A program made the translations under genes and the position numbers. From Candidatus Poribacteria bacterium (GTDB taxonomy: Bacteria > Poribacteria > WGA-4E > WGA-3G), in the NCBI GenBank assembly GCA_022821965.1, contig JAJECN010000036.1, forward strand, positions 1-64,000: a stretch of 64,000 nt of DNA. Reading direction: 5' to 3'. This document shows positions 12,257 through 50,032 of this stretch, in pieces; position 1 is the first letter of the stretch; every line of letters starts with the position of its first letter. The notes under the pieces are model-generated. The model made no database searches and was not told the DNA's origin. It was given only the letters and a program-made list of their open reading frames with translations.

Positions 12257-12273
12257 TTCTATGATGTCCTCCG

Positions 12274-13161
12274 TTACGGAAGCTCTGGAAGTTTGCATTG
12301 GCGAAACCATTGTGAATCTTCCGGTGGCGATTCTTCAGGATTTTCCATCGTCTCAAAGGTTTTCAGGGCAGGTGATACAGTTTCTGCCCATATCTGTTCG
12401 ACTTCCTCAAAAGTTACAGGTTGGCGTTCACTAATGTCTTGTTGTGCGTAAGCCTCCAATAATTCCTGCATCTTTTCTCCGAGCCATGCAACTTCATCTT
12501 CCACCATACGTTCACCGACGCGGCGGTCAGAATCGGAAGCGTTTGATCCCATTGCGAAGTGTGGTCCTTGTGCGTCCGCTGCGGGCATTCTCGACATATC
12601 AACACACTCCGGCTCTAACGCCCAGAGAAGCGAGGTTTCGACTCTACCAGCGTGATCTGCGCCGTTACCCTGACGGTCAAACCCGGGCGTGTTCGCCTCG
12701 AAATCAGGAAGTCCATAGAGTCGCATGGCAAAGTAGGGTTGAATTACGGATAGGAGCGTTTTAAGGTCCTGCCAGTTCGGTCCGTAGTGTCCAGTGAGGA
12801 AAATAGCGGCGTGAAATCCGAGCGCATCAGCGGCGCGGACGTGATAACACACATTTTTGAAATGTTGCCACGTCGGCATAGCAGTGAGCCAGCTGCGCAC
12901 TTCGCCGACATTCTGATATGCCCAGTTCGCATACATGCCGTGTTCGTGGATATGCCAATAGTCGGGCGGTGCGACAATACCGCCGTGGGTTTGTGCTGCA
13001 CGGCAAGCGATTCCGTGTGCTTTGAGCGCATCAAGCCCTACCGTATTTTGCGGTCCATGCGGTTCGCAAAGCCCGTAGGTAAAGTAGACAGCGGGACATT
13101 CGTCGAAAGCAGCTTCCAATTCATCAGGGAACATCCGTTCCCAGCGTACCTCTTTTCGCAT
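12274..13161 (-). CDS. Creatininase-family amidohydrolase
   Basis: Members hydrolyse creatinine or related cyclic amides with two metal ions (also MftE and FAPy deformylase types). The 295-residue protein has GLCEPHGPQNTVGLDAL, equivalent to the E-HGPHLPLGTD metal site, FLTGHYGPNWQ, and ADHAGRVETSLLWAL, matching the family A-HAGE-ETS block. The usual Glu-Gln-His is altered to Glu-Pro-His. An AGAGG sequence precedes the ATG. It heads a close-packed run with a PhyH-like oxygenase and a sarcosine-oxidase-like enzyme, which suggests a small catabolic operon for an N-methylated guanidino or amide compound. The family is well supported; the substrate is inferred from context. Confidence 0.82.
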   Translation of the reverse strand: MRKEVRWERMFPDELEAAFDECPAVYFTYGLCEPHGPQNTVGLDALKAHGIACRAAQTHGGIVAPPDYWHIHEHGMYANWAYQNVGEVRSWLTAMPTWQHFKNVCYHVRAADALGFHAAIFLTGHYGPNWQDLKTLLSVIQPYFAMRLYGLPDFEANTPGFDRQGNGADHAGRVETSLLWALEPECVDMSRMPAADAQGPHFAMGSNASDSDRRVGERMVEDEVAWLGEKMQELLEAYAQQDISERQPVTFEEVEQIWAETVSPALKTFETMENPEESPPEDSQWFRQCKLPELP

Positions 13162-17200: not shown

Positions 17201-20046
17201 TCAGGTGTACCGACAGCAACGATAGTTCCGCCGCCGACACCGCCTTCCGGTCCTAAGTCAATGAGATAATCAGCGGAGTTGATAACTTCAAGATTGTGTT
17301 CAACGACGACGACTGTGTTGCCGTCTTCCACGAGTCGATGAAGAATCGTCAAGAGTTTATTTACATCGTCGAAGTGTAAGCCTGTTGTGGGTTCGTCGAG
17401 AATGTAAAGCGTTTTGCCAGTGCCTCGCTTCGAGAGTTCCCGCGAAAGTTTGATGCGTTGTGCCTCACCACCCGAAAGTGTCGGCGCGGGTTGGCCGAGT
17501 TTGATGTAATCCAGGCCCACATCGTGAAGGAGTTGTAATCCCCTTGCCACTCTTGGAATATCGGCGAAATGCACAAGGGCGGTATCGATATCCATTTCGA
17601 GGACCTCGGAGATGTTTTTTCCCTTATACTTAATGGCAAGGGTTTCGCTGTTGAAGCGTTTTCCCTCACACACTTCGCACTCCACCCAGACATCGGAAAG
17701 CAGCCCCATATCCACTTTTTTCGCACCGTTGCCACTACACGCTTCACATCTACCCCCCGAAACGTTGAAACTAAACCTTCCGGGTTTGTAGCCCCGCAAT
17801 TTTGCATCGGGTAAGCCTGCGTAGAGGGCACGGATCCCATCAAATACCTTTGTGTAAGTTGCAGCGTTGGAACGTGGGGTTCGCCCGATAGGTGCCATGT
17901 CGATGTTGATAATTTTGTCGATAACATCGGAGATCGGGACGTTTTTTCCGTCAATGATACCTTGAATCTTGTCATAGTCGCCCGGGACGGTCTTCGCCTT
18001 CATAAGGTCGCGGGCGAGCGCGTTATAGAGAATATCGTGAATTAAGGAACTTTTTCCAGAACCGCTCACCCCTGTCACACAGCAGAGCGTCCCGACTGGT
18101 ATTTTGGGATTGATGCCTTTGAGGTTGTTTTGACGGGCATTACAGATTTGCACCCATCTGTTTCCCGTTTCACGACGCGATTCTGGTTGAACAATTACCT
18201 TATCACCTCGGAGATATTGGGCGGTGAGTGTGTTACTCTCTTTCATGAACTGCGCGGGTGTTCCGATATCGGTGATCCTTCCGCCCTTGATACCGGCACC
18301 GGGACCAAAATCAACGATCAGGTCTGCCACCAACATAGTTGCCTCGTCGTGTTCAACGACAATGACAGTGTTTCCTTGATTACGTAGGTTTAGGAGGGTT
18401 ATCAGTAGACCCGCATGGTCGCGCGCATGTAAGCCGATGCTCGGTTCGTCAAGCACGTAAGTGACATCGCGTAACCCCGCACCTACTTGGCTGGCGAGGC
18501 GAATCCGTTGCGCTTCACCACCGGAGAGTGTTGGAGCAGGACGAGCGAGCGTCAAGTATCCCAATCCCACATCTATGAGAAACCCAAGCCGTCCTCGAAT
18601 TTCCTTTAGGAGTTCGGTCGCGATGAAAGCCTCGCGCTCTGGAAGTTCCAACGCGTTAAAGAATTGGGATGCATCCTGAATGGACATCTCAAGGATGTCC
18701 GTGATGGCGGTATCGCCTATCGTCACCGCTTTTACCCATGTATTAAGCCGTGTTCCGTCACATGTTCGGCAGCGCATTTTGGTAAAGTAGTCTGGGAAGT
18801 TATCTTCATTGTCCTCGTCGTCGTTTTCAAAGTGGTACTTCTGTTCTTCAGTTGGAATGATCCCATGAAAGCGAGCACGATATTGTCGGCGTTGCTTCCC
18901 TTTTCTGGAACGGCTTGTGCTGGGAGTGGTGATCGTAAGGATATCGTCGCCAGTACCGTAGAGGATGGCGTGCTGCTGTTCAGGTGTAAGGTCTTTCCAA
19001 GGTGTATCAATATCGAATCCAAGGTGTTTTGCGAGTGCTTCGGCGATTACCTTTTCTTTCAGGGTGCTTCGTTTATTAAGAGGGCCCCATAGATTGATGG
19101 CACCTTCTATAATAGAGAGGGTTTCGTCCGGAACAATCAACTTCGGCAGAATCCCCATTTCAACGCCTAAACCCCGACAGCTTTCGCACATGCCATCAGG
19201 GTTGTTGAAAGAGAAATGGCGGGGTTCCGGTTTCACGAAACTAATCCGGCAGTGCAAGCAGGTGTAATCCTGACTGAACAGTAGGTCGTCCTCTTCAGAT
19301 ATGAAAGGAGATGCCTCCCCTTCAGTAGGAATCACATGAACAAGAAGGTTCCCGTCTCCGCGCAAAAGAGCGGCATCCACGGCTTGGGCAACGCGAGATT
19401 CAACGCCTTCTTTGATGATAATTCGGTCGATGACAACGTCAATGTCGTGGCGTTGATTCGGATTGAGGGCGAGTCCCGGTCGGAGTTCATATATTTCACC
19501 ATCAATTCGCAACCTTGCGAAACCGGCGTTGCGTAAGTCTTCGAGTTCTCTTTCGTGTGCCCCGCGGGAGCCTCTGATAATCGGTGCTAAAATGATAAGC
19601 CTTGTGCGCACGGGGTAATCAAGAAGGGTTTTGACAATATCCGCCGCAGTCTGCGAACCGACTTCGCGTCCGCATTCGGGACAGTGGAATTGCCCGACGC
19701 GCGCGTAGAGCACACGTAGATAGTCGTAAATCTCGGTGACAGTAGCAACCGTGGAACGCGGATTGTGTCCTGTTGAACCCTGATCAATAGCAATGGAGGG
19801 GGATAATCCGACGATCTCATCTACATCCGGTTTTCCGAGTTGCCCCAAAAATTGACGTGCATAAGCGGATAAAGATTCGATGTATCGCCGTTGTCCTTCA
19901 GCGTAAACCGTATCAATTGCCATTGAGGATTTGCCGGAACCGCTTACGCCGGTGAAGACGATGAGTTTGTCTTTTGGAAGTTGAATATCAATATTTTTCA
20001 GATTGTGTTCTCGCGCGCCGTGTACGAGAATAGACTCTTCTGTCAT
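14212..20046 (-). CDS. uvrA: Double-length UvrA (two complete UvrA units in tandem)
   Basis: UvrA is the damage-sensing ABC ATPase of nucleotide excision repair. It acts as a dimer with UvrB. A normal UvrA has about 940 residues and two ATPases; this protein has 1,944 residues and four. Walker A boxes lie near residues 33-41, 662, 1025 and 1627. ABC signatures (LSGGEAQRIRL or LSGGEMRRIRL type) lie near 510, 858, 1455 and 1837. Each unit also has CxxC zinc-binding pairs, including CEAC...CEVC in unit one and CHVC...CEAC in unit two. The second unit begins near residue 990 (GATENNLKEIDIDI). Covalent fusion would build the dimer into one chain. Comparable tandem UvrAs are known in Chlamydia. I chose the ATG at 20046 because it has AGGAA upstream and a standard MTEESILVHGAREHNL start. 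era precedes it by 98 bases. Confidence 0.93.
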   Translation of the reverse strand: MTEESILVHGAREHNLKNIDIQLPKDKLIVFTGVSGSGKSSMAIDTVYAEGQRRYIESLSAYARQFLGQLGKPDVDEIVGLSPSIAIDQGSTGHNPRSTVATVTEIYDYLRVLYARVGQFHCPECGREVGSQTAADIVKTLLDYPVRTRLIILAPIIRGSRGAHERELEDLRNAGFARLRIDGEIYELRPGLALNPNQRHDIDVVIDRIIIKEGVESRVAQAVDAALLRGDGNLLVHVIPTEGEASPFISEEDDLLFSQDYTCLHCRISFVKPEPRHFSFNNPDGMCESCRGLGVEMGILPKLIVPDETLSIIEGAINLWGPLNKRSTLKEKVIAEALAKHLGFDIDTPWKDLTPEQQHAILYGTGDDILTITTPSTSRSRKGKQRRQYRARFHGIIPTEEQKYHFENDDEDNEDNFPDYFTKMRCRTCDGTRLNTWVKAVTIGDTAITDILEMSIQDASQFFNALELPEREAFIATELLKEIRGRLGFLIDVGLGYLTLARPAPTLSGGEAQRIRLASQVGAGLRDVTYVLDEPSIGLHARDHAGLLITLLNLRNQGNTVIVVEHDEATMLVADLIVDFGPGAGIKGGRITDIGTPAQFMKESNTLTAQYLRGDKVIVQPESRRETGNRWVQICNARQNNLKGINPKIPVGTLCCVTGVSGSGKSSLIHDILYNALARDLMKAKTVPGDYDKIQGIIDGKNVPISDVIDKIINIDMAPIGRTPRSNAATYTKVFDGIRALYAGLPDAKLRGYKPGRFSFNVSGGRCEACSGNGAKKVDMGLLSDVWVECEVCEGKRFNSETLAIKYKGKNISEVLEMDIDTALVHFADIPRVARGLQLLHDVGLDYIKLGQPAPTLSGGEAQRIKLSRELSKRGTGKTLYILDEPTTGLHFDDVNKLLTILHRLVEDGNTVVVVEHNLEVINSADYLIDLGPEGGVGGGTIVAVGTPEQIAEVPESYTGQALRGDFDIWRDTKRQLMEPELTSAFGKASEIRPETIAVRGATENNLKEIDIDIPHRKMTALTGVSGSGKTSLALDTIYAEGQRRYIETLSTYARQFIGQMGKPKVSKIEGLSPAIAISHADAGQNPRSTVATITEIHDGLRTLYARWGKPYCPDCQVEVQAQTAEEITEQVFEHLQQKRVDVLAPLTNFMIISETETGIARGKIIDINASESAYGLKGNEDYADVFSRLQRAGFVRVQIDNEIHRLDEVPQLSKGIRHEIFIVVDRVELIDEEKSRFTEAVELALLQSGGFVLIQETRSMTNASAKTNRSKRRPTENQQQDTSIKKFFSEHAMCPSCGSNFGQLTPRHFSFNNKIGACDFCDGRGRNIHPPYNVCNQCDGTRLKPFSSCVRFEDMTIAELMALSITEIIEFFNARLEEIKAQLASDDAETNRSDLLIETGVSTSRATHPALHIHTSPEFEAEVLSQIQTRLEFLEDIGLGYLALDRGAPTLSGGEMRRIRLASQLGSGLTGVTYILDEPSIGLHPRDQERLIDALKELRDIGNSVLVVEHDRDTILAADYVIDFGPQAGNGGGEIVAIGAPDTFTNGSTPVEMIAESSSTDKRSSTKSLTQAYLSNEVEISVPKTRREGTGKALAIFGAKTNNLKDIDVKIPLGTLTCVTGVSGCGKSSLVEGTLKPALESRSSIKTGDPEDHRYTHYLSDGDREPIYNDCGQPEYKSIRGVSYIKRLINVDQKSIGETPRSNPATYTDLFTKIRELFAEQHDAKTRGFNMGRFSFNLAQGQCHVCEGHRFNRVEMHFLPDVWMPCEACNSTGYSMETLEIRYKGKNIAEVLEMTVDEALTFFDESPRICRTLQMLTDVGLGYIKLGQSAPTLSGGEAQRVKLAKELARRQTGSTLYIMDEPTTGLHFDDIQKLLKVLNTLVDAGNTIIAVEHNIDVIKSADWVIDLGPEGSKDGGNVVAMGTPEEVATVQESHTARFLREVL

Positions 20047-20144
20047 TATATGATTTCCTGTAGTTTTATGAATCGTATATTTTGGTGAATACCACTTGTA
20101 TTTGTGAAATGACCGAATTATCTGTGTTTGTGAGGCGAACAAAA

Positions 20145-31957: not shown

Positions 31958-34900
31958 CTATTGAGGAGGAAGGTTACCATCTAAATCTTGGAAGATTGGG
32001 GACAGGTAACTGGTATCATCATGGTCTGGAAAGAGGATATGCCACTTTTCTTCCAATTCCTGCTTACCTATACCACCTCTATAACGTAGTTTGACAAGAG
32101 GTGTTTTTGAGATAATAAAGGAATCCATTTGTACATGTTCGCTACGGAAACGTTTGTAAGAAAAATCACGTAGTCTTTTGAAAAGGTTAATTTTTGGATT
32201 GTGTTCGTTGATTGGTTCATGTATCAGACCGTGTGGTTCAATGAAGACAATACGTTGTCTTGCACCTTCAAGGATCCATAGGATAAAGTCCGGATAGAAG
32301 CCTTCGTTTTCGTAGAAACCTATTCCTTTACCGCGGCTTTGGTTGCGTAAGAGAAAAATCTCCTTTTTAGCAAGATCCTTGTGCGGTTGACGTACATAAG
32401 ATCGGAGATCTCCTACAAAATCTTCCTCGCTTTTTTCTAAAGCAGGTGGCGTTATACGTAGCGTTGAGTCTGCTCCGCCTATAGTCAGAAGCGGTTGGTA
32501 TAAGTGTCGATCATTATGGATGTTGGGAAGATCAGTTAGATCAGGTCCATATATTCTACCATCTTCTATTAGGTGTCTGATGATTGGTTCGAGTTCGTCG
32601 GACTTATCTCGGGGAATGGAAACTTTCCAATCTATGAAGTTGGAATTCTTTTCGTCTAACTTTTTTAAACGCACACCTTCATCATTCCAACGTTTCTGAA
32701 TGATACGGTAGAATTTAGTAATGTATTTACGGAGGAGTGTGAGCACCAATTCCTCTAACTGTTTAAGTTGCTCCAATGATTCCGGCTCAACTTCAGATTT
32801 ATGCATAACTTTGAGTTCATACAAAGGATTATCCGTATTGAGGATATCCCTGAGAATATCAGCATCAAAAACGAGGTTGTGATACCCTCTCTCTTGCTTA
32901 TACTCAACAAGCTGAAGATAGATTTTTTCCCAATCAACCAGATCTAAGTACTGCTCTTTAATTGAAGTTTCATTTGCCGCTTCCGCGCTTTCGTCTTGGA
33001 TACTGTCTGCTGAACTACTACCGATAATACTAACGGTTTGGGTTGTGTGAGTAACAATTATATCTTCACACGCCTCAAGCATTACACATTTTCCTTTTGC
33101 AGCTTTGTCATAAGATAGGACTTTGGGAACATAAAGCCGTTTCGCCAGGTAATCCGTGTTAGGTTTGATCGGTAATTCCAGTTGGATTGGATCTTCGTGT
33201 GGAACCCCTTCGCGCTTGAGGTATTTTTGGAAGTCTGTCATAAAATTAGCACGCACGGCGAAGATATTGAGCGTTTCCAAAAGTGGTAGGTTAGGCGGAT
33301 GATCGCCATCAAGTGCAGTGCTACGTTTGAGACTCATGTTTTTGCCGCGTAGACGGACACCACGACCAAACAGCTGGATAATCTGCGACCCTTCCTGTCT
33401 GCCGATATTGAGCAGTCCCATTGTGGTAACTCGCCAACTGTCCCATCCTTCAATAAACTTTTTCGCGCCGATGAGTATATTGATTGAACTTTCGGGTTTG
33501 TTGATGGCGTTAAAGAGACTTTCTGTTAACACATCTTCAGGGTCCATGATGATTCCCGCATCGTCATTTTGAACGAGTTTTTTGAATTTGGGCACATCAC
33601 CAATATTGATAACACCAAATTCTTTGCTACCATGGGTGGTTTTTAAGGCGATTTCCCCCTGTGCATTTCGGACATCACAAAGATGTAAAGCACCGCTTGA
33701 ATCGGTATGGAAAATTTCCTTGAGGATGTCGGTATAGATTTGTGATGCCGCTTCTGCCGTGTTTTTAAGGTAGGCGAGCCGGTTCTTAAAAACATCGTTG
33801 CCATTGACATCGGATAATCCCGATGCACCATTTAGAATATCTTCTATACCTTGAATTGCCCATTTCTCTTCATTTCTTAGGAACCGATGCAGAAAGCGGA
33901 TAACGTTAAGGACATCTGAGCGTTCTTTTCCTTTTTCTTTATAGACAACTTTGGCGTTGACTCTGCTACCAACAAATGTCCATAAGGGTAATTCTAAGCC
34001 GTAGGCACGCACAGCCTCTATATTTTCCTTGAAATAGCGTTTCTGTTGATAGAAGCTGAGGAGATTCGCTAAAAAAAGTATTTCGGTTTGGGTTTCGTTA
34101 TCGTGGCCAACGTTGATGATACGGAAGTCCTTCCCATATCCATCAGTGTAGAAATACCGATAGGAATAATCAAAGGCAATTGCTTTTCCGTATTCATCAA
34201 CAAGGTCATCATCTTTCGCAGCAGCTAGTGCTTGTCCAAAAGTTGCACTGTATTCAAAGGTAAAACCGCTTTCGGCGAGTCTTTTGCGACGAGTCCGCCA
34301 GACTGCATCCTCACTACGAGTGCCTTTATGCCCTTCATCAACGAAAACCAAGTTCCTGCCTTCACATGCCTCAATTGGAACACTTACGCCTTCCGCTGTC
34401 TTTTCATCAACTAACTTATAGTTGTCAATGACCCGCACTACATCGCGAGCGTATCCTGCTCGATTGGCTTCAATTTTGAAAGGTTCACACGGAATGCAGG
34501 ATTTATCCATTTCCTGCATGTGTTGCTCGCTTAACCCTTCATTCGGTGTAATCAGCACAACGTTGTCCAACCCTTCTTTGCTATAGTGCAAATACTGGTA
34601 ATAGTTGATGTGCATGATAAGAGTTTTACCAGCACCTGTTGCCATCCAGAAAGCGATTTTTTCAATATCTGTTTCTAAGAAAGGGGTATCCATCGCGTCC
34701 CCGGGTGCTCTTGCATCATTACGAGTTTGGACGAAATCATTAAGTTGGCGTAGGAATTCCGCCGGTCTGTTGAATTTCCAATCCAAGAATATCTCGGTAT
34801 AGAGGAGAGCAAGATATTGAAAATAGCGGAGGACAATTGGTTGTGTGCGTCTGTTGTTTATGGCGGATAAGTGGCGTTTGATATTGGCATCGTAGATTGG

Positions 34901-35125
34901 TAATGGATCCTCAATCTCATTTTTTAAATTTGGGCGGGACATAAGGAATTCGCAGATTGGTGAGTATCCACTTGGGGTGAATCCCTCGTCAACGTTTGCA
35001 ACATCACTAAGTAGGTCACGAGTAGTTTCATACCCGAATTGGTCATTTAGCCATCCATGTAGGGTGAGATGGTTGTTGAGTTCTTTCGTTTTCTTTTTGG
35101 GCATAGTGGTTTCTTTAGCGGACAT
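31958..35125 (-). CDS. Type III-like restriction enzyme, Res (helicase-nuclease) subunit
   Basis: This 1,055-residue SF2 helicase-nuclease is intact. Walker A WMATGAGKTLIMH lies near residues 158-170 and the DEAH-like box LVFVDEGHKG follows. QLFGRGVRLRG is motif VI. Near the C-terminus, GFYPDFILWIL then VFIEPHGL matches a PD-(D/E)xK-type nuclease, although the usual Lys after E-P is His here, so cleavage activity should be checked. The ATG follows the mod stop with no gap (TAAATG on the minus strand), a clear sign of translational coupling. The CBASS cassette begins about 50 bases beyond its end. It is not closely similar to the broken res gene at 0.2-2.3 kb. Confidence 0.88.
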   Translation of the reverse strand: MSAKETTMPKKKTKELNNHLTLHGWLNDQFGYETTRDLLSDVANVDEGFTPSGYSPICEFLMSRPNLKNEIEDPLPIYDANIKRHLSAINNRRTQPIVLRYFQYLALLYTEIFLDWKFNRPAEFLRQLNDFVQTRNDARAPGDAMDTPFLETDIEKIAFWMATGAGKTLIMHINYYQYLHYSKEGLDNVVLITPNEGLSEQHMQEMDKSCIPCEPFKIEANRAGYARDVVRVIDNYKLVDEKTAEGVSVPIEACEGRNLVFVDEGHKGTRSEDAVWRTRRKRLAESGFTFEYSATFGQALAAAKDDDLVDEYGKAIAFDYSYRYFYTDGYGKDFRIINVGHDNETQTEILFLANLLSFYQQKRYFKENIEAVRAYGLELPLWTFVGSRVNAKVVYKEKGKERSDVLNVIRFLHRFLRNEEKWAIQGIEDILNGASGLSDVNGNDVFKNRLAYLKNTAEAASQIYTDILKEIFHTDSSGALHLCDVRNAQGEIALKTTHGSKEFGVINIGDVPKFKKLVQNDDAGIIMDPEDVLTESLFNAINKPESSINILIGAKKFIEGWDSWRVTTMGLLNIGRQEGSQIIQLFGRGVRLRGKNMSLKRSTALDGDHPPNLPLLETLNIFAVRANFMTDFQKYLKREGVPHEDPIQLELPIKPNTDYLAKRLYVPKVLSYDKAAKGKCVMLEACEDIIVTHTTQTVSIIGSSSADSIQDESAEAANETSIKEQYLDLVDWEKIYLQLVEYKQERGYHNLVFDADILRDILNTDNPLYELKVMHKSEVEPESLEQLKQLEELVLTLLRKYITKFYRIIQKRWNDEGVRLKKLDEKNSNFIDWKVSIPRDKSDELEPIIRHLIEDGRIYGPDLTDLPNIHNDRHLYQPLLTIGGADSTLRITPPALEKSEEDFVGDLRSYVRQPHKDLAKKEIFLLRNQSRGKGIGFYENEGFYPDFILWILEGARQRIVFIEPHGLIHEPINEHNPKINLFKRLRDFSYKRFRSEHVQMDSFIISKTPLVKLRYRGGIGKQELEEKWHILFPDHDDTSYLSPIFQDLDGNLPPQ

Positions 35126-38100
35126 TTACTGAGGAAACATCAATTGTTTGAATAATGGATCTAAGGATTTAGCTTTTGGAATGTTACTGTCTTTATTAAC
35201 ATATACTTCTGCTGCATCTTCTATTAGTTTATGCTCATGAACGAAATTGTAATCACGTTCGTAGTCTTCTTGTTTCCAGTCTGCGGTTTCACGCCAGATA
35301 ATGACAACCGATTTTTGCCCGACTGTGCCTTTGTAGATGAGGTAACGTCTATCATCGTCGTGCAGGCATCGACGCGTCTGAACTGATAAGCCGAGAAGGT
35401 AGTTGAAGGTTTCAGGTAGGTCTATGGTCTGTATTTGTGTCTGCATATTTTTGACGATATTAAGTTGATAACTGAAAGGATTTTGGAACTTGAATGTGTT
35501 TAGGAGCGTTGGGCTTTCCCTTGTATCGCTCTCCAACATATAACTCAATGGGTGTTCATCAAGTAATAGATTCTTACCTTCGGTTTTGTCGAGTTCTATA
35601 TTGTTGAGGGCATCTTCATAGGATTCAATGCGTTGGTATTTGATAATGTGAGAGAGACGACTTTCACGAGATATTGGTTTTGCCTCTTTCCATTTTTCGG
35701 CATAGATTGCCTTCAGAACTCGAGGTTTTAGGACGGTGTTAAAATGATGTCCCATCTCAATAAGGATGTATTTGCGCTTTCCTCCGTCTTGGCGATTGAG
35801 GTTAATGGCAGCGTGGGCAGTCGTTCCAGAACCTGCAAAGTAATCCAGCACAGTATCGTTTTTACCAAAAGAGGAAACACGAAGGCAATCTTCAACGAGA
35901 TGGATAGACTTGGGAAACGGAAATGCCAACGCGTCACCTAGCATATTTTTTAATAAACCGGTTCCGTAGGTCGTTGCTGAGTATTTTGCTTTGTCCGTGT
36001 CATCATTCTTGCAATTGTCGACTTGATCTTCATCCTCTGCATATTCTATTTTACCCCACCATGTTGTTGGCAATGTTCCTTCTTCGTTTAAAAAGCGTTT
36101 GAAACGGATTGAAATATTGTCATTATTGTCTGTTTTTGAAGATATTTCAGATAATGCTAGTTTTTCTTTGAGTGTTTTAACTTCAAAGTTCCATGTCATC
36201 TCTTCACCATTTTCGTTGATTGGCCAAATCTCTTTTTCACCAGGGCGCGCTGTCTCTTCAAGAGACCATTCTCGTGATGTGCTACTCCAATCCATTTTGG
36301 GAATTCGAATATGATTATCCTTGACAAAAATTGGATAAAACAAGCGCGGTCTAGCAATTCGTCGGGCATTAGGTCCGCCAGATTTTCTGAGAGATCTCCA
36401 TTGGAAACGATGTCCATTTTTATCAACGTGTTTATAGTTTTCGAGCTGTCTTTTTGTCCATTCTAGGCGACTAATTTTTGAAGCTTCGCTTATTCCAAAG
36501 AACATTGCGTATTCATGGGCAGGAGCAAAGCCTCTTGGTCTTTTACGACCTCCTGGGTTGGAACAGACCGAGACAATTCCGAGCTCGTTTTTTTTCCTAA
36601 ATAGGTGTTGGAGAAGATATCGGAGGTTGGAAGCCTCAACGTCATCAATGGCGGCACAGAAAATACTATTGCCCGCCAGCAATTCACGTGAGGTTGAGAT
36701 TCTATCTGCCATTAACGACATCCATGATGAATCCTTATAGTTATTCTTATATAGAATTGCAGAGGCATCGGTATTATAAGGCGGATCGATATAGATGGTT
36801 TTTAGGGATTCACGGTATTTCTCTTTCAACAAATTTAATCCTTGAAAGTTTTCTCCGTGAATAAAAATGCCATCTATTTCATTGTCTAAATCATGGAAAC
36901 ATGCTAGGAGGCGATCTTTGAAATCTGAATCAAAGTGGCAAGTATCCAGGACGAGATTTGGATTTTCTTTTAAGAAGTTAACAGAAAGTGGTTCCGTGTA
37001 GTCGGCACCTATGAGATTACTGTCTATTTCGTGAATAGCAAAAAGGTTTTTCCATTCATTGAGTTGATCCGTGTTCTGCGTGATTTCAGGGTAAAATTCT
37101 TCTGGAACGCGGTCAAGCGTGAGGCAATAGTTAGTAGAGAGAACAAACTTCTTTTTCAGCCAGAGACGTTTTTGGAACTCCTCAATGTGTACCAAAAAGT
37201 CAATAATTTTAGAAACTATGGAATTCACGAGTTTACTTGTTTCAATCCAATTTACTCTCTTTAAGCTATCCTCTTGAAAATTAGCATCATTAAAAATGAG
37301 TGAGGACAGCGGCATCACTTCGTTTTTGATGTAGACATCCAGTTCGCGGTTGAGAAATTGCTTAAGGTCTTTGTGAATGAAGAAGTCTGCGGTGTTGCGG
37401 ACTGTGTAGCGTTCAAAGTGTTTTTCAAGTATAGTTTTTGTGCCTATAGGTCGGTCTAATGCAGCATGAACTTTAAAATTGTTGCTAAACTGTTTTAATA
37501 TTCGCTTTCTCGATTTTACATTTATTTTATTTTGGATTTTGTCCTGTTGGGTTCGTTTGCCGTAGAGAGATTTCTCGTCATCAGTGAGTGGACGGTATTC
37601 AAATGGAATGCAAACCTCGCAGGTTTCTGAATTATACTTTGTTTCTACAGATAGGGGAATAAAGAAACGTTTCACACCTTGGACATTGTCTTTTTCAATA
37701 TCTACATCGCGGAGGTCAAAGATAACAGTAATACCTTGAGATTCAAATCTATAGGTAGGAAAATGCTCGCTGCTCTTGACGTAATACTGGTCGCGGTTTG
37801 CCCAGTGGAGATAGACCTCTTCACCGTTGTATGGAACAGCGTAGCGTTCCGTTTGGGAATAGCGTCTGCGCGGAATGAAGTCGCCGTTTTCGTAGTAGCG
37901 GGAGAAGAAGGTATAGAGATGGTTATAGACAGTATCTTCGCGTTGGTTGCGAGTTTGTGTTTCACCGCGTTTTTCTTTTGCTTCAAGGAATTTCTTGACC
38001 ACGGGAACCTGTGCAAACGCCTCGTTGATCGGGTTGTCATTTGCATCTAACATTCCGTCGGGGATCTGCTCTCGTAAAAATTCGATTTCTTTTCCCGCTG

Positions 38101-38293
38101 TATCTGCTTCGTCGTTTTCGTTGAGGGCCTCCTTGACGATGGTAGGAAGTTTCTCATCAATGAAGTTTTGAATCTGGTCGCGTCGATAGTTGATGATGCG
38201 GTAGATACCGAAGTCGAGGTCGGCGGCATCTGCGCGGAAGAGTTTTTGGAGGAGATTCTGTAATTTTTGTAAGGATTCTTGCATATTTTTCAA
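35126..38293 (-). CDS. Type III-like adenine DNA methyltransferase, Mod subunit
   Basis: This 1,055-residue methyltransferase modifies adenine in the recognition site to protect host DNA. Motif IV DPPYNTDAS (near residue 500) precedes motif I-type FAGSGTTAHAA (near 820), the beta-class order of type III Mod proteins. It is much longer than classical Mod (about 650). An N-terminal 450 residues of unknown fold (DADLDFGIYRIINYRRDQI-like start) precede the catalytic core, and a 180-residue region follows it. These extra parts are typical of large Mod proteins paired with a helicase and probably hold target recognition. res follows immediately. The system is likely a restriction-modification unit of the local defence island. 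Confidence 0.88.
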   Translation of the reverse strand: MKNMQESLQKLQNLLQKLFRADAADLDFGIYRIINYRRDQIQNFIDEKLPTIVKEALNENDEADTAGKEIEFLREQIPDGMLDANDNPINEAFAQVPVVKKFLEAKEKRGETQTRNQREDTVYNHLYTFFSRYYENGDFIPRRRYSQTERYAVPYNGEEVYLHWANRDQYYVKSSEHFPTYRFESQGITVIFDLRDVDIEKDNVQGVKRFFIPLSVETKYNSETCEVCIPFEYRPLTDDEKSLYGKRTQQDKIQNKINVKSRKRILKQFSNNFKVHAALDRPIGTKTILEKHFERYTVRNTADFFIHKDLKQFLNRELDVYIKNEVMPLSSLIFNDANFQEDSLKRVNWIETSKLVNSIVSKIIDFLVHIEEFQKRLWLKKKFVLSTNYCLTLDRVPEEFYPEITQNTDQLNEWKNLFAIHEIDSNLIGADYTEPLSVNFLKENPNLVLDTCHFDSDFKDRLLACFHDLDNEIDGIFIHGENFQGLNLLKEKYRESLKTIYIDPPYNTDASAILYKNNYKDSSWMSLMADRISTSRELLAGNSIFCAAIDDVEASNLRYLLQHLFRKKNELGIVSVCSNPGGRKRPRGFAPAHEYAMFFGISEASKISRLEWTKRQLENYKHVDKNGHRFQWRSLRKSGGPNARRIARPRLFYPIFVKDNHIRIPKMDWSSTSREWSLEETARPGEKEIWPINENGEEMTWNFEVKTLKEKLALSEISSKTDNNDNISIRFKRFLNEEGTLPTTWWGKIEYAEDEDQVDNCKNDDTDKAKYSATTYGTGLLKNMLGDALAFPFPKSIHLVEDCLRVSSFGKNDTVLDYFAGSGTTAHAAINLNRQDGGKRKYILIEMGHHFNTVLKPRVLKAIYAEKWKEAKPISRESRLSHIIKYQRIESYEDALNNIELDKTEGKNLLLDEHPLSYMLESDTRESPTLLNTFKFQNPFSYQLNIVKNMQTQIQTIDLPETFNYLLGLSVQTRRCLHDDDRRYLIYKGTVGQKSVVIIWRETADWKQEDYERDYNFVHEHKLIEDAAEVYVNKDSNIPKAKSLDPLFKQLMFPQ

Positions 38294-43755: not shown

Positions 43756-45210
43756 TTACTCACCAGTGTAGAGTTTGCCGAAGTAAGGACGGAAGCCCTC
43801 GGGTCCGGGAAAACCGTTCCAGTAGTTGGCATCGGCGGGAAAAGCGTCCTCACCACCGCTACGAAGCCACGCGATGAGCGCAGGATCGGTACCGCGACGT
43901 TCAATTTCATCAACAGCAGCAGCGTGCAGTTTCGCAACAACATCGGGATGTTCACTGGCAACGTCGTCTAATTCACCGAGTCGGACGAGTTTTGAATTTT
44001 CAGGTTTCGTGCCGACCTCTAAACTCCACTCACGGTCGAAAGCGGTGAAGAGATTGAGATTCGGGTTCTGTGTACTGTTTTCCCACCGCTCAATACTTCC
44101 GCCTGAAAGCGCAAGCTGCCTTTCGCCGGTTTCTCCGTTTCGGGCTGGGGTTAGGATATCGTGTCCCTCAATACCGTCAGGACGTTCCTCGCCCAAGATA
44201 TTGAGAATCGTCGGGAAGAAATCCTGTGGTTGGACGATGACATTGCTTCTCCCTGTGTCCCCATCCGGAAGTCGAATAAAGAGAGGGACATGTGCCTCCT
44301 GCTGACGGACGGGTTGTCCTTTACCAAACCTACCGCGTTCACCGACATTTGTGCCGTGGTCCGCGGTAAAAATAACAGCAGTGTTCTTATCAAGACCAGT
44401 AGACTCAAGAGCATCAAGGAACTGTCCGAAGCAGTGATCCATCCATGTCGTTTTAGCGGCATATTGCGCTTTGATATGCTGTCTCGCTTCATCTGAGAGT
44501 TCAGCATTACCCCGTGCACCGAGGCTACGCGGATCGACACGTCCGTCGTAACCGGGACGGGTGTCGTATTTTTTCATGAACTCAAGCGGGGCATCCCAAG
44601 GTTCATGCGGATCGAAGCAATCTATCCAGAGGAAGAAATTATCACGTTTGGCGTTATCTTTGAGGAATTGTGCAGCGGTGTTAAAGAGTTTTGCGCAGTT
44701 CCAGTCTTCCGGTTTCTTTCGGTTTCTGTTTGCGCGGGCGTAGCTGCGGAGCATTCCCGATTCAGCGGCTTTGTCATCAATGCAATCGAAAAGTGGTTGC
44801 CGGGTCCAGTTATCGGGCCATGCTACAGTATCGGTGATCCAATCTCTATCGACTTCTGCACCGCGAACGAAGGTCCACGCGTGGAAGGGCCAGTCGAAAT
44901 TGTGTCCGCCGTTGACGAGATGCGGTGTATCATGAATGAGTTGTGTTGCGTAACCGTTTCCTGCGAGTGTCCACGGTAAGGTTTGGCGTTCGTGACGTAG
45001 TGGTTTCCAAGGGTGAAAGGGCGCGCCGTATTGCCCAGTGATGACATCCGTCCGGTAGGGGATCGTTGGAAAACTGGCACAGAAAGCGTAGTCATAAGCC
45101 AAGGCTTTGGAAGCAAACCGATCAATGTTGGGTGTTTCTATCCAGTCGTTTCCATTTGCGCCAATATAGTCGTAGCGGAGTGTATCGATAACAATGTAAG
45201 CAAGGTTCAT
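43756..45210 (-). CDS. Sulfatase-like alkaline phosphatase superfamily protein with Thr at the nucleophile position
   Basis: The 484-residue protein follows the sulfatase fold: N-terminal AYIVIDTLRYDYIG with metal ligand Asp9, and FTADHGTNVGERGRFGKG for the C-terminal metal site. The expected (C/S)-x-P-x-R formylglycine motif appears as TIPYR (49-53), with Thr in place of Cys or Ser. A Thr cannot be converted to formylglycine. Thr is the nucleophile in related phosphodiesterases and in LtaS-type enzymes. This protein may thus be a phosphoric-ester hydrolase rather than a sulfatase. It has no signal peptide, another departure from classical sulfatases. It is co-directional with two PhyH genes. 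Confidence 0.82.
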   Translation of the reverse strand: MNLAYIVIDTLRYDYIGANGNDWIETPNIDRFASKALAYDYAFCASFPTIPYRTDVITGQYGAPFHPWKPLRHERQTLPWTLAGNGYATQLIHDTPHLVNGGHNFDWPFHAWTFVRGAEVDRDWITDTVAWPDNWTRQPLFDCIDDKAAESGMLRSYARANRNRKKPEDWNCAKLFNTAAQFLKDNAKRDNFFLWIDCFDPHEPWDAPLEFMKKYDTRPGYDGRVDPRSLGARGNAELSDEARQHIKAQYAAKTTWMDHCFGQFLDALESTGLDKNTAVIFTADHGTNVGERGRFGKGQPVRQQEAHVPLFIRLPDGDTGRSNVIVQPQDFFPTILNILGEERPDGIEGHDILTPARNGETGERQLALSGGSIERWENSTQNPNLNLFTAFDREWSLEVGTKPENSKLVRLGELDDVASEHPDVVAKLHAAAVDEIERRGTDPALIAWLRSGGEDAFPADANYWNGFPGPEGFRPYFGKLYTGE

Positions 45211-45258: not shown

Positions 45259-46005
45259 TTACCATTTTGGGATTGCGCCGAGCAAGAGTTGCTGTTGCGG
45301 TGTCCCCTCTTCTCGGAGTTTTGTGACGCGAGGACCGTCAAAAGGTTCTCTGGATTTCATCCAGGCGTTTTGATAGCACATGAGGCAGACGCGACGACGT
45401 TGTGAGGAATTGTTAGCAGCACCCCGATGCCATGTCCATCCATCAAACATAACGGCTTGTCCGGGGGAGACGAGAACCCGTTTCTCATCAGGCAATTCAA
45501 CGGGAGTCGGGGGTGGACGGAAAGGTGCCCTATGACTGCCGGGTTGGATAACCGTGGGACCGTTGTCGTCGGTAACTTCGTCGAGATAGTAGCCACAATT
45601 GATCTGTGCCGGTAGACTCCCATAAGGCGTTCCGTTCGGTGCAACGGGCCAGGGACCGTCACGGTGCCAATGCTGATCTGGCGTTCCGGGTTCGGTGATA
45701 CGTGCTGTTGCGCTGTGGAGTTGGACACAGGTGCCTAATATCGCTTCCATCCGCTTTAGTACCGGAGGGTTGTCCAACAGAAATGCGAACCGATCGTCCT
45801 CCTCAAGGAGTTCACCGATGAATTGGCTTTTGTCTCTGCGTTCGTAGCTTTCATCAAGTGCCTCGCGCAACGACTCGAGCTGTTCTGGTGTTGCTGCATC
45901 GTCAACGATGAGATAACCCCAATTGAGGAAGAAGTTGACCTCTTGTTGCAGTTGGTGATCCAGTTCAACATTGAGTGTTGGTGGCACTACGCTCGGATTT
46001 GCCAT
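45259..46005 (-). CDS. Phytanoyl-CoA dioxygenase (PhyH) family protein
   Basis: This 248-residue Fe(II)/2-oxoglutarate oxygenase shows the metal-binding HxD in QHWHRDGPWPVA, GPTVIQPGSHRAPF in the core, and the distal His with the 2-oxoglutarate Arg in GWTWHRGAANNSSQRRRVCL. A longer frame to 46119 would overlap the upstream PhyH gene. The ATG at 46005 has a perfect GGAGG that lies inside the end of that gene, only four bases past its stop. The pair is therefore translationally coupled. The two proteins are not closely similar to one another, so they may act on successive substrates. The substrate is unknown. Confidence 0.87.
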   Translation of the reverse strand: MANPSVVPPTLNVELDHQLQQEVNFFLNWGYLIVDDAATPEQLESLREALDESYERRDKSQFIGELLEEDDRFAFLLDNPPVLKRMEAILGTCVQLHSATARITEPGTPDQHWHRDGPWPVAPNGTPYGSLPAQINCGYYLDEVTDDNGPTVIQPGSHRAPFRPPPTPVELPDEKRVLVSPGQAVMFDGWTWHRGAANNSSQRRRVCLMCYQNAWMKSREPFDGPRVTKLREEGTPQQQLLLGAIPKW

Positions 46006-46009
46006 GGGA

Positions 46010-46834
46010 TTATGCCTCCTTAATTGCCTCTTGATCGGCGGTTGCCCATTCTTCCCAACGTTCTTCGTCGGATTGGAGGAAGCCAGAGTTGCATCGCGGT
46101 TGAAGTTGCTCATCGACACCGAGGAGCCGCATGTGTTGATGATTATTGGCGGCTTTTGCGGCTTCCAACAATTTTTGGGTATGCGGACCTGTGTGATGGT
46201 CAGTGTGTTTCAGCCACGTCAGGTTGTAATAAATGCTGAAGAAATAGCGTAACTTGTCGGAAGTATTTGGTGTACCAGAATGGATGAGTCCGTTGTGTGT
46301 GATGACGACATCACCGGCTCCCATGTGGATGAGTGTTTCGTCGGGATGTGGAACTCCGCGTTGCGAGTCTTCCATAGTAATCGGCTTCCGGTGCGAACCA
46401 ACAATGACCCGGAGAGGTCCGAATTCATCCGTCAAGTCTTGCAGATAAGAGATGGCGTTGATAGCGTTCGGGCGGTGATACGCGTCGGTATAGGGAACAT
46501 GTGCCCACCGATCGCGGTGCCAGCCAGAGACCCTCCCTTCCGCTTTTTCCTTTTCCATCGGTGGAAACGCTGCGAGCGTGAGGTTATCTAATTGCACGAA
46601 AGGTCCCATCACTTTTTCTATAAACTCAAGGATTGTGGGATGCGAGACGGCGGACCACATCAGTTCGGGTGCTAATTCAAGCGTGTTTCCGAACCAGGTC
46701 TGTCCGTCGTTGGCTGCGGAGAGTTCGGCGTGTTTCTCGCGCCAACTTTGCATCTGGGGTTCATCAAAGACTTTTTCAAATATTGCAAAGCCGTCGGTCT
46801 TATAGGTTTCAAAGCGTTCATCTAATGTTGGCAT
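46010..46834 (-). CDS. Phytanoyl-CoA dioxygenase (PhyH) family protein
   Basis: This 274-residue oxygenase shows the HxD in SGWHRDRWAHVP, GPLRVIVGSHRKPI, and the distal His in VVITHNGLIHSGTPNTSDKLR, followed by the conserved Arg. The N-terminal half (YKTDGFAIFEKVFDEPQMQSW) is typical. The ATG directly follows the second box of a dispersed leader repeat (CGAACCGCAAGGA, then ATTAAAAA), which can serve as its ribosome binding site at slightly long spacing. A MITE-like element interrupts that leader upstream. It is the first gene of a PhyH-PhyH-sulfatase-like run. The substrate is unknown. Confidence 0.87.
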   Translation of the reverse strand: MPTLDERFETYKTDGFAIFEKVFDEPQMQSWREKHAELSAANDGQTWFGNTLELAPELMWSAVSHPTILEFIEKVMGPFVQLDNLTLAAFPPMEKEKAEGRVSGWHRDRWAHVPYTDAYHRPNAINAISYLQDLTDEFGPLRVIVGSHRKPITMEDSQRGVPHPDETLIHMGAGDVVITHNGLIHSGTPNTSDKLRYFFSIYYNLTWLKHTDHHTGPHTQKLLEAAKAANNHQHMRLLGVDEQLQPRCNSGFLQSDEERWEEWATADQEAIKEA

Positions 46835-47143: not shown

Positions 47144-48088
47144 TTATTCGCGCAGTCCACTGAGGATTGCTTCGGCAAGTTGCATGGTTTTAACAGCTTC
47201 GTCAAGGTTGGCGGCGGGGAATGAAACAGGCGTGTCAGATTTGACACAGTCTAAGAAATACCTGTTCTGCTCAACAGTGCCGCCGGTGCCTGCTTCCGTG
47301 AGTTTGTGTTGCGTGCCATCACAGAAAACCGTTCCTTGGGAGACCCCTTCAAGGTATGCGGAGATGTCTCTGCCGTGAATCTCATAGCGTTCAAGGCGTG
47401 CATCTGTCGTGTAATTGGCGATGTGTTGAGCGACACACCCGTTATCAAACAGGATGAGCGCAGCGTGGACATCTTTGTAATCTGAGATTGCCCGCTGCAC
47501 GACACTATGAACTTCTTGGACCTCGGCTTCAGCGATGGCGCGGATTGTATCGAGGGCGTGGATCGGTGTTTCCAAGAACATATTGTCCATCAGGTGTTCT
47601 GGAAACCTGCCTGTCAGTCGGGTAATACTCTTGTGGAATTCACCAACGATTTGTGTGACGGGACCGCGTGCGGTTACCTGTCGTTTCGCTTCAACGATGA
47701 TCGGGTGAAAACGACGGTTCCAGCCCACCATCCCTTTCGCACCTGTCCGTTCTGCAGCACTGCGCAGGGCAACTGTCTCCGCAACGCTCATCCCCGGTGG
47801 TTTTTCTAACAGCGTATGGACACCGCGTTCAAAGCAAGGAAGTGCCGCTTCACCGTTGAGGTGTGCGGGTGTGGCGACAAAGATAGCATCTAAGGTTTCG
47901 TTGTCTAACAATGCCTCGATGTTCTCATAGCGGTTTGAGACGTTGAACATGTCTGCTGCATTGTTTCGTGCTCCTTCAACCGGATCGCATACAGCAACGA
48001 GGTCGGTATCGTCAAATTCTGAGAGGATTTTCATGTGACCGCGACCTCTACCGCCGCAGCCGATGACAGCAACTTGTAGTTTCGACAT
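47144..48088 (-). CDS. Gfo/Idh/MocA-family oxidoreductase
   Basis: This 314-residue NAD(P)-dependent sugar/cyclitol dehydrogenase-type protein has the nucleotide loop VAVIGCGGRGRGHMKIL and the family block VHTLLEKPPGMSVAE with the catalytic-type Lys (EKP). A shortened C-terminal substrate domain ends in AVKTMQLAEAILSGLRE. AAGGAG precedes the ATG. It lies between a PhyH gene upstream and the split leader repeat downstream, within an alternating Gfo/Idh - PhyH block. The substrate is not determinable; the family spans myo-inositol, aminosugars and biliverdin. Confidence 0.88.
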   Translation of the reverse strand: MSKLQVAVIGCGGRGRGHMKILSEFDDTDLVAVCDPVEGARNNAADMFNVSNRYENIEALLDNETLDAIFVATPAHLNGEAALPCFERGVHTLLEKPPGMSVAETVALRSAAERTGAKGMVGWNRRFHPIIVEAKRQVTARGPVTQIVGEFHKSITRLTGRFPEHLMDNMFLETPIHALDTIRAIAEAEVQEVHSVVQRAISDYKDVHAALILFDNGCVAQHIANYTTDARLERYEIHGRDISAYLEGVSQGTVFCDGTQHKLTEAGTGGTVEQNRYFLDCVKSDTPVSFPAANLDEAVKTMQLAEAILSGLRE

Positions 48089-48148: not shown

Positions 48149-48937
48149 TTAGTGCCGGATGTGGGGTGCCTCCATAACTTCTCGCTGTTCAGGGGACATA
48201 TCCTCAATGTAATCGGGATACGTAACCTGATGTGCCCCGACCCCATAAGACTGGAATCCAGGGCTGAACTTGTAGAGCAGTGCGCGTCGTTGATGGCTGC
48301 CTGTCCACGGAAGCGTGCCGTGTGTCAAGGTTTCAGTGAAAATCACGGCATCGCCAGCCTTAGCATTGACTTCAAGCACCAGATTCTGGTATTCCTCGTA
48401 CCGCTTCATGCTGCTGGGACAGGGGAGGTTCGCCTTGTGGCTGCCCGGGACGATAGCCAAACCTCCATCGCCGGGTCCCTCGTCAGCGAGCATGTATTCG
48501 ACGACAGTCAAGCCTGTGTATATCCGTCCATATTTGAAGAAGTAGGCTTCGGAGAAATTGGGGCGTTCAATCCCGCCACCGTGTAAAGTGCCGCCTTCTG
48601 TCCCTTTTTCCATGGCGATTAAACCGGGACCGTGGTCGAGTCGATACTGTTTGCCCAATGCCTCTTCAAGGCAGGGTTTAACATTGGGATGCACGAGGAG
48701 ATTGCGAAACGGTTCACACCAAGGTTTCTCCCATGCGAGCATGCCCCCCATGTCCATCCGGTGCGCTGTGCCGGAGAGTGCAGCGGAACCGCCTGCCAGA
48801 GAGCTGTCGCGTTCCCTGAGTCCTTCGATGTGATGATCGATGGCAGCGTTACATTGTGCTACTTCTTCTTCTGTCAAAGCGTTTTCGACGATGATGTATC
48901 CTGTCAAATCGAATAGGTACTTTTGATCTTCGTTCAT
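48149..48937 (-). CDS. Phytanoyl-CoA dioxygenase (PhyH) family protein
   Basis: This 262-residue oxygenase starts MNEDQKYLFDLTGYIIVENAL. The usual Fe-binding HxD region is altered: the core reads EGGTLHGGGIERPNFSEAY, so the first motif is HGG rather than HxD. GGLAIVPGSHKANLPCP, VIFTETLTHGTLPW and the Arg in SHQRRALLYKF are conserved. The missing Asp could abolish iron binding, or be compensated as in halogenase-type relatives, which replace it with Gly or Ala. GGAG at good spacing supports the start at 48937 over an ATG 24 bases upstream. It is flanked by two Gfo/Idh genes. Confidence 0.82.
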   Translation of the reverse strand: MNEDQKYLFDLTGYIIVENALTEEEVAQCNAAIDHHIEGLRERDSSLAGGSAALSGTAHRMDMGGMLAWEKPWCEPFRNLLVHPNVKPCLEEALGKQYRLDHGPGLIAMEKGTEGGTLHGGGIERPNFSEAYFFKYGRIYTGLTVVEYMLADEGPGDGGLAIVPGSHKANLPCPSSMKRYEEYQNLVLEVNAKAGDAVIFTETLTHGTLPWTGSHQRRALLYKFSPGFQSYGVGAHQVTYPDYIEDMSPEQREVMEAPHIRH

Positions 48938-48954: not shown

Positions 48955-48971
48955 GGCACACGGTGTGTGCC
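48955..48971. repeat. REP-like hairpin between Gfo/Idh and PhyH genes
   Basis: GGCACAC-GGT-GTGTGCC followed by TAC: same plan as 45231-45247. It touches the stop codon of the Gfo/Idh gene. Confidence 0.55.
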
Positions 48972-50032
48972 TACGACTTCGCTTCTTCAATGCTTTGAGG
49001 TCTACCGGTTACGTCACCTCCGAGCCATCGGTAGGGACGTGGGTAGAGTGCTAAAGATCTGTCTTCAATTGGTAGTTTAATGGGTGCACTGTTTCGGTTT
49101 GCGGAGAGTTTCGCAGCGATGGCGACTTCCAAGGCTTGTCGGAGGTCTGCGCCTGTAATCCATGGATCTCCGTTGCCATCAACAGCGGATAAAAAGGAGC
49201 GGATGGAACCTGTGAGATAGCTGAATTCGCTCCACGAATACGGGCTATAGTTGGGTTCAAGTCGAATACGATTGCCGTGCTGGTCGTAGTCTTTAAAAAT
49301 CTCTGGAGGATTCCAATCCCAGCGGACAAGACATTCGTCTGTCCAAACATCCACGCCGCGACACGTTGTTGGTGTTCCGAAGACACTACATTCCAAGCCG
49401 TTTGTAAGATAAAAGCGTCCGTTGATGATTAAGCCTTCATCGGTTTCTGCGCTTAGTGCTTCAGGTGGTGTTCCCCACGCGATGACTTCTTCAACTTCAG
49501 CGTTGGTGAAAAGTCTTAGGACAGAGATATGTTGGCATCCACCACCGGAGATTTCACCGCCAAAACCGTGAACGCTTGCGCCTCTAATATTCCCAAATTC
49601 ACCCTTGTGCAGGCGAGCTGCGGCTTCCTGAACTTCATTCATAGCGCGTTGCAGATTGCCTCCGGCAAATACTATATCGCGTTCGGAACACGCTTCAACC
49701 ATCGCGTCAGCATCTTGCAAGCGTGCGGCGATCGGTTTCTCTGTGGAAATACCTTTAACACCGGCTTCGGCACATGCAATCACGACATCTTTCATGTATT
49801 TCGTGGGAGTGACAACCACTGCGATGTCCGGCACCATATCCTTCAATAATGTTTCTACATCTGGGTAGAGCGCAGCGACACCGAAACGCGTGCCGAGGAC
49901 ATCCCGTCGCTGTGCATTGGCATCGACGATCGCGACGATCTCTGTATCGGGATAGGTGGTGTATGCTTCGGCATAGTTCTGTCCCATCCGTCCACAGCCG
50001 ATGATGGCTACTCGATATTTGGTGTTACTCAT
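48971..50032 (-). CDS. Gfo/Idh/MocA-family oxidoreductase
   Basis: This 353-residue NAD(P)-dependent oxidoreductase has the nucleotide-binding RVAIIGCGRMGQNYAEAY at the N-terminus. The family block is GVKGISTEKPIAARLQDAD with the catalytic-type Lys, followed by a full substrate domain including GGGCQHISVLRLF. AGGAG precedes the ATG. It is the first gene of the long minus-strand run and is divergent from glnD. The 340-base gap between them holds a glnD promoter, and its own promoter should lie there too, though I could not pick one. It probably acts on a sugar or cyclitol in concert with the neighbouring oxygenase. Confidence 0.88.
   Translation of the reverse strand: MSNTKYRVAIIGCGRMGQNYAEAYTTYPDTEIVAIVDANAQRRDVLGTRFGVAALYPDVETLLKDMVPDIAVVVTPTKYMKDVVIACAEAGVKGISTEKPIAARLQDADAMVEACSERDIVFAGGNLQRAMNEVQEAAARLHKGEFGNIRGASVHGFGGEISGGGCQHISVLRLFTNAEVEEVIAWGTPPEALSAETDEGLIINGRFYLTNGLECSVFGTPTTCRGVDVWTDECLVRWDWNPPEIFKDYDQHGNRIRLEPNYSPYSWSEFSYLTGSIRSFLSAVDGNGDPWITGADLRQALEVAIAAKLSANRNSAPIKLPIEDRSLALYPRPYRWLGGDVTGRPQSIEEAKS

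Follow-up and report, generated by a model that had tools for sequence, protein, structure and literature searches.

Canonical members of the PhyH family, exemplified by human PhyH (2a1x), ectoine hydroxylase (4mhr) and PHYHD1, display the HxD...H iron motif of PF05721. In SyrB2 and CytC3, which are PhyH-like proteins, Gly or Ala replaces the Asp of this motif. Human AspH, which has an HXG...H motif, belongs to another branch of the 2-oxoglutarate (2OG) superfamily. HygX from Streptomyces hygroscopicus (4xc9, 4xca, 4xcb and 4zpi) is a hygromycin B oxidative cyclase that reads LHGG...NEALMHG...R at the corresponding positions. A review notes that the structures of HygX fit a mechanism in which the metal catalyses hydrogen abstraction from the substrate (PMC8234114). 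Relatives of PHYHD1, one of them from Poribacteria, are described as stripping 2'-O-methyl groups from nucleosides (PMC12709175), and high numbers of PhyH proteins in Poribacteria have already been reported (PMC3909097).

Here we describe P0001, a protein encoded in a 64,000-nucleotide stretch of DNA from Candidatus Poribacteria bacterium (hereafter the window). P0001 shares with canonical PhyH proteins the Pfam family, the fold, two His and an Arg, but it lacks the Asp of HxD and carries a Glu four residues before the distal His (His-4), a position filled by Pro in 2a1x and Cys in 4mhr, the two structures compared. On the basis of sequence comparison and a structural model, it is likely that P0001 is an active HygX-type Fe(II)/2OG oxygenase that uses Glu202 as its carboxylate ligand and acts on a sugar-like substrate.

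P0001 lacks the canonical metal-binding aspartate

The gene and the codons of its putative active site are located as follows.

48149..48937, minus strand: P0001, a PhyH-fold (DSBH) protein of 262 amino acids assigned to the D-less HygX-like clan described below (Pfam, profile, model and tree)
48575..48583, minus strand: codons of His119-Gly120-Gly121, the proximal metal His and the Gly at the canonical Asp position (sequence and alignments)
48332..48334, minus strand: codon of Glu202, the His-4 acid and proposed replacement carboxylate ligand (conservation, clan contrast and the Glu of HygX)
48320..48322, minus strand: codon of His206, the distal metal His (invariant in the homologue alignment)
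48287..48289, minus strand: codon of Arg217, the expected 2OG-binding Arg, 11 residues after the distal His (His+11; conservation)

The open reading frame begins with ATG, and an alternative open GTG start lies 24 bases upstream. PF05721 covers residues 9-219 (1.2e-12; 49.1 bits against a gathering cut-off of 22), a scan against NCBIfam returned matches far below cut-off only, and the Foldseek and VIA rows for P0001 were, among the matches listed, Fe/2OG oxygenases with a DSBH-type fold. In a profile alignment the first motif, GTLHGGGIERP, places His119 on the proximal His column and Gly121 on the Asp column; the HxD...H motif of PF05721 is therefore incomplete in P0001, the Asp being absent. 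As judged from sequence, P0001 is within Pfam PhyH but outside the canonical metal-site type. The alignment bore out the original prediction that the HGG of P0001 differs from the HxD of the three other PhyH proteins in the window (HQD at about 11516-12334, HRD at 45259-46119 and HRD at 46010-46834). The listed coordinates of the two HRD reading frames overlap, since an upstream GTG was taken as the start of the downstream one.

The loss of the Asp is a stable feature of the orthologues, a point that the original prediction had marked for checking. HGG occurs in 51 of 52 P0001-homologous loci, the exception being L081 of Gemmatimonadetes MAG RS821 (genome G084; 50% identity to P0001), which reads HGS. 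A shift of the motif or a sequencing slip is ruled out by this recurrence and by the clean alignment of the Asp column in nearly all of the 143 domains with both His from the window's own genome. Furthermore, His119, Gly120, Gly121, Glu202, His206 and Arg217 are identical in 44/44 sequences, down to 72% identity; this alignment comprises P0001 and 43 orthologues, with 8 further loci and L081 left out. The retention of HGG across the loci and of the six site residues across the alignment shows that the site is not decaying. Among named records the closest are Candidatus Poribacteria MAGs (96% identity), and matches to P0001 (E <= 0.001, paralogues included) were found in 78 of the 84 genomes searched in the phylum. 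A plasmid scan gave only two weak Cupriavidus matches, and no relatives were found in the viral contigs scanned.

An acidic residue precedes the distal histidine in most D-less PhyH domains

The window's genome (5.7 Mb) contains 145 PhyH matches. G084, at 5.4 Mb, has at least 152, as many as the Poribacteria genome, and the expansion is thus not confined to Poribacteria. PhyH domains from both genomes were placed in one profile alignment and retained if both metal His were present. In the window's genome 147 domains gave 145 with both columns and 143 with both His, while in G084 at least 168 domains gave 156 and 152, respectively; the remainder were dropped. The counts include two doubtful rows, GEM L272|4570 and L289, which read HWD a few residues further on and are probably canonical but misaligned, and L256, a partial domain.

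Asp or Glu is absent from the HxD position (hereafter D-less) in 29 of the 143 domains in the window's genome. An acid is present at His-4 in 24 of these 29 domains, compared with 7 of the 114 D-bearing domains (Fisher 2e-16, relatedness ignored). The same contrast is seen in G084, with 26/34 against 5/118 among the matches listed (Fisher 1.6e-17, relatedness ignored). This second half of the pattern had been overlooked in the original prediction. Gly or Ala occupies the third position of the motif in 22 of 143 domains in the window's genome and, among the matches listed, in 26 of 152 in G084.

In a tree built without the motif columns, a clan of 60 domains, 29 from the window's genome and 31 from G084 among the matches listed, contains 49 of the 50 domains that lack the Asp and carry an acid at -4. 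Among the matches listed, His-4 is acidic in 51/60 clan domains but in only 11/235 others; in a further four clan domains the turn is longer by one residue (FMDG type) and the acid falls at -5, and five have no acid at either position. The residue equivalent to Gly121 varies within the clan (G 35, A 10, D 4, S 4, H 3, N 2, P 1 and V 1 among the matches listed). Two of the four Asp-bearing clan domains, L138:1027-1926 and L137:1051-1938, lack the acid and two have both residues, while outside the clan ten HxD domains likewise carry an acid at -4 (among the matches listed). Asp, as HAD or HSD, and the His-4 Glu occur together in the clan members L116:1471-2265, L265:2388-3278 of G084 and L353, which are possible intermediates or reversions and would be useful as controls in a ligand-swap test.

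Arg is found at His+11 in 60/60 clan domains and 229/235 others, and the His206 position is His in all 295 domains, a set pre-filtered for His at both positions (both among the matches listed). When the 34 acidic residues of P0001 that fall in the aligned region were ranked by clan/non-clan contrast, Glu202 came first in the matches listed. Three other acids also mark the clan but were rejected as ligands. Asp10 is acidic in 58/58 clan domains and 73/230 others among the matches listed, but lies in the first helix of the AlphaFold2 model and was thus judged remote from the iron site. Asp157 (37/60 against 14/234) and Asp101 (33/59 against 19/234) are acidic in too few of the clan domains among the matches listed.

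The co-variation derives mostly from one clade, so the Glu could have been inherited from a common ancestor and serve a different function; a sign test on six independent pairs was under-powered and not significant (median p 0.5). The pattern within the clan, in which the Asp position varies and the His-4 acid is mostly kept, speaks for a functional role, as far as can be read from sequence. In six other genomes of the phylum, 30 loci yielded 31 distinct clan-type domains, 30 with Glu at His-4 and one of FMDG type, with first motifs that read HGG, HGS, HCA, HMH, HQH, HEG, HHT, HHH, HGQ, HGA, HAD or HFD. These loci were selected for highest similarity to the clan and include at least two P0001 orthologues (L331 and L343); they therefore demonstrate conservation rather than independence.

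HygX is the closest solved relative by sequence

When a profile of 22 clan sequences (A1) was run against the PDB, the best matches were the HygX entries (6e-28), followed at lower significance by human PhyH (2.4e-15), ectoine hydroxylase (5.9e-13), SyrB2 (7.6e-10) and CytC3 (6.1e-08). HygX is only ~20% identical to P0001 and differs in its organism and gene neighbourhood, but the two proteins have in common HGG, Glu at distal His-4 and Arg at His+11. In a tree of the 60 clan domains and 50 sampled from the 235 others, again without the motif columns, HygX and one HRD domain, GEM L241, join the clan (SH-aLRT 99), with no firm placing of HygX inside it. HygX is the one clan member with a solved structure found in this analysis.

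The AlphaFold2 model of P0001 built with an alignment of 58 sequences (A3) has a pLDDT of 77.6 and a pTM of 0.83, with residues 122-140, beside the site, below a pLDDT of 50; a single-sequence AlphaFold model (pLDDT 34.6) was set aside in its favour. In the A3-based model His119 is at the end of a strand, while Glu202, just after a strand, and His206, at the start of the next, flank one tight turn. Foldseek ranked HygX first (3.5e-15), with 8zyb and OkaE close (1.0e-14). In VIA-align HygX (Z 21.0) came at rank 40, slightly behind several fungal oxygenases, SptF (Z 22.6) among them, and the fold alone therefore does not single out HygX. The Foldseek titles of the HygX entries refer to iron, nickel/2OG and hygromycin B complexes. 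McCulloch et al. 2015 (PNAS) reportedly mention in their abstract 'a variation in metal coordination in HygX', and we take the Glu of NEALMHG to be a metal ligand in that enzyme; our literature search found no text on the HygX metal ligands.

Gene neighbourhood of P0001

P0001 is part of a conserved cluster that contains the following genes.

48971..50032, minus strand: GFO/IDH/MocA oxidoreductase upstream of P0001 (Pfam; in 22 of 52 loci)
47144..48088, minus strand: GFO/IDH/MocA oxidoreductase, the next gene downstream (Pfam; immediately following P0001 in 40 of 52 loci)
45259..46834, minus strand: two canonical PhyH genes (HRD and HRD) of the same cluster (both with P0001 in 36 of 52 loci)
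43756..45210, minus strand: sulfatase-family gene at the end of the cluster (PF00884, 1.5e-40; in 36 of 52 loci)

These counts, obtained by tblastn at an identity of at least 45% across the 52 homologous loci, are lower bounds as some contigs end early. None of these neighbours was seen by tblastn in 11 more distant loci (L066-L073, L075, L081 and L082). The proteins around five of these (L067, L071, L075, L081 and L082) were scanned against Pfam. In L071 the homologue is adjacent to a different GFO/IDH/MocA gene, and in L067 such a gene is two genes away. L067 and L082 have ThuA-family genes upstream; neither family was present among the proteins scanned in L075 and L081. The neighbourhood points weakly to sugar-like chemistry for P0001.

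Other PhyH variants and features of the window

A further PhyH variant, in which HSH or HTH replaces HxD and the distal site reads MWTHA(A/L)H, occurs in both censused genomes and a third (L152:754-1518 and L152:1660-2517 on contig C18 of the window's genome, L240:5735-6514 of G084, and L356), and by its sequence would give a three-His site. Two-domain PhyH proteins of about 520-610 amino acids, in which the first domain is without one or both metal His and the second has both, are encoded at L119:658-2397 in the window's genome and at L266:9062-10885, L258:1383-2951 and L262:4-1767 in G084; in both genomes the first domain is, from its sequence, an apparent pseudo-enzyme domain.

Elsewhere in the window, 14212-20142 encodes a UvrA-like protein that, at 1976 residues, is roughly twice as long as a typical UvrA and matches the UvrA interaction domain in two stretches. 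Adjacent 1055-residue reading frames at 31958-38293, with ResIII/DEAD helicase and N6_N4_Mtase domains, are probably a restriction-modification pair.

Discussion

The sequence pattern of P0001, its conservation, its fold and its kinship with HygX lead us to infer metal ligation by Glu202, catalytic activity and the class of substrate. In the proposed mechanism iron would be held by His119 and His206, with Glu202, in the turn just before His206, replacing the Asp of HxD as the carboxylate. Arg217 would anchor 2OG, the role expected of this residue in PhyH proteins. P0001 probably oxidises a small molecule resembling a sugar or cyclitol, by hydroxylation, demethylation or oxidative cyclisation, and may act in a pathway with the GFO/IDH/MocA dehydrogenases. 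Of the three readings offered by the original prediction, the suggestion that a different residue supplies the ligand fits best, as Glu202 is conserved both in the D-less clan and in HygX; the other two, a halogenase and an inactive paralogue, fare poorly.

The strongest competitor, though an unlikely one, is an oxygenase in which His119, His206 and water bind the iron as in AspH, and Glu202 is a second-sphere residue that, for example, holds the water; such an enzyme would still oxidise its substrate. Human AspH is an active hydroxylase that, like P0001, displays HXG...H, and FIH in which the Asp is changed to Gly retains some activity (PMC10947486). In contrast to the site proposed for P0001, the iron of AspH is held by two His only, with no claim of a relocated acid. 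The five of 60 clan domains with no acid at -4 or -5 (among the matches listed) are consistent with a two-His site, which, however, gives no strong reason for the mostly conserved acid beside the distal His, a residue absent from most HxD domains.

The example of AspH, an active hydroxylase with HXG...H, also means that HxG is no proof of a halogenase (PMC10947486). In a halogenase of the SyrB2 kind, Gly121 would leave room for chloride or bromide and an aliphatic carbon would be halogenated. HXG/A serves as a halogenase mark (PMC12871659), HxG is strictly kept in the P0001 orthologues, and SyrB2 and CytC3 are detectable as relatives. Their kinship with P0001 is distant, however, and much more remote than that of HygX, so that the closest solved relative by sequence is not a halogenase. 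Unlike the Gly or Ala of SyrB2 and CytC3, position 121 in the clan drifts to S, H, N, P, V and D while the acid at His-4 is mostly kept, and a conserved acid beside the open site would presumably compete with the halide. The neighbours are sugar-type dehydrogenases, and the neighbouring proteins scanned included no carrier protein and no member of an NRPS or PKS family; free-standing halogenases exist. A halogenase is accordingly improbable. Least probable, despite the missing Asp, the decay expected among 145 PhyH matches and the existence of degenerate domains such as the first domain of L119, is a paralogue without catalytic activity that is retained for binding or regulation, since the two His, the Arg and Glu202 do not vary across the 44 aligned sequences and the place beside the dehydrogenase is kept in 40 of 52 loci.

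If ligation by Glu202 is extended from P0001 to its relatives, the whole PhyH clan, some 30 domains per genome in one sponge-type Poribacteria genome and one Gemmatimonadetes genome among the matches listed, may have shifted the carboxylate of the iron site out of HxD and onto a Glu at His-4. Such a move would free the old Asp position and re-orient the open coordination sites, perhaps admitting bulky sugars and favouring oxidative cyclisation or demethylation. We advance this tentatively, at rather less than even probability. The clan is large and, within the literature searched, undescribed as such, with no text found on a relocated acid in PhyH proteins; P0001 itself joins the already known HygX type.

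P0001, a protein of a sponge symbiont, is thus probably neither broken nor a halogenase; most of its D-less relatives, like HygX, have another acid next to the iron site. In each of the two genomes censused, the HXG/A mark of halogenases (PMC12871659) would pick out many genes for which a HygX-like oxygenase is the better reading, and we propose an acid at distal His-4, the second half of the motif, as a simple sequence filter. If the Glu is a ligand, the clan would constitute a natural experiment in the relocation of a metal ligand within one fold.
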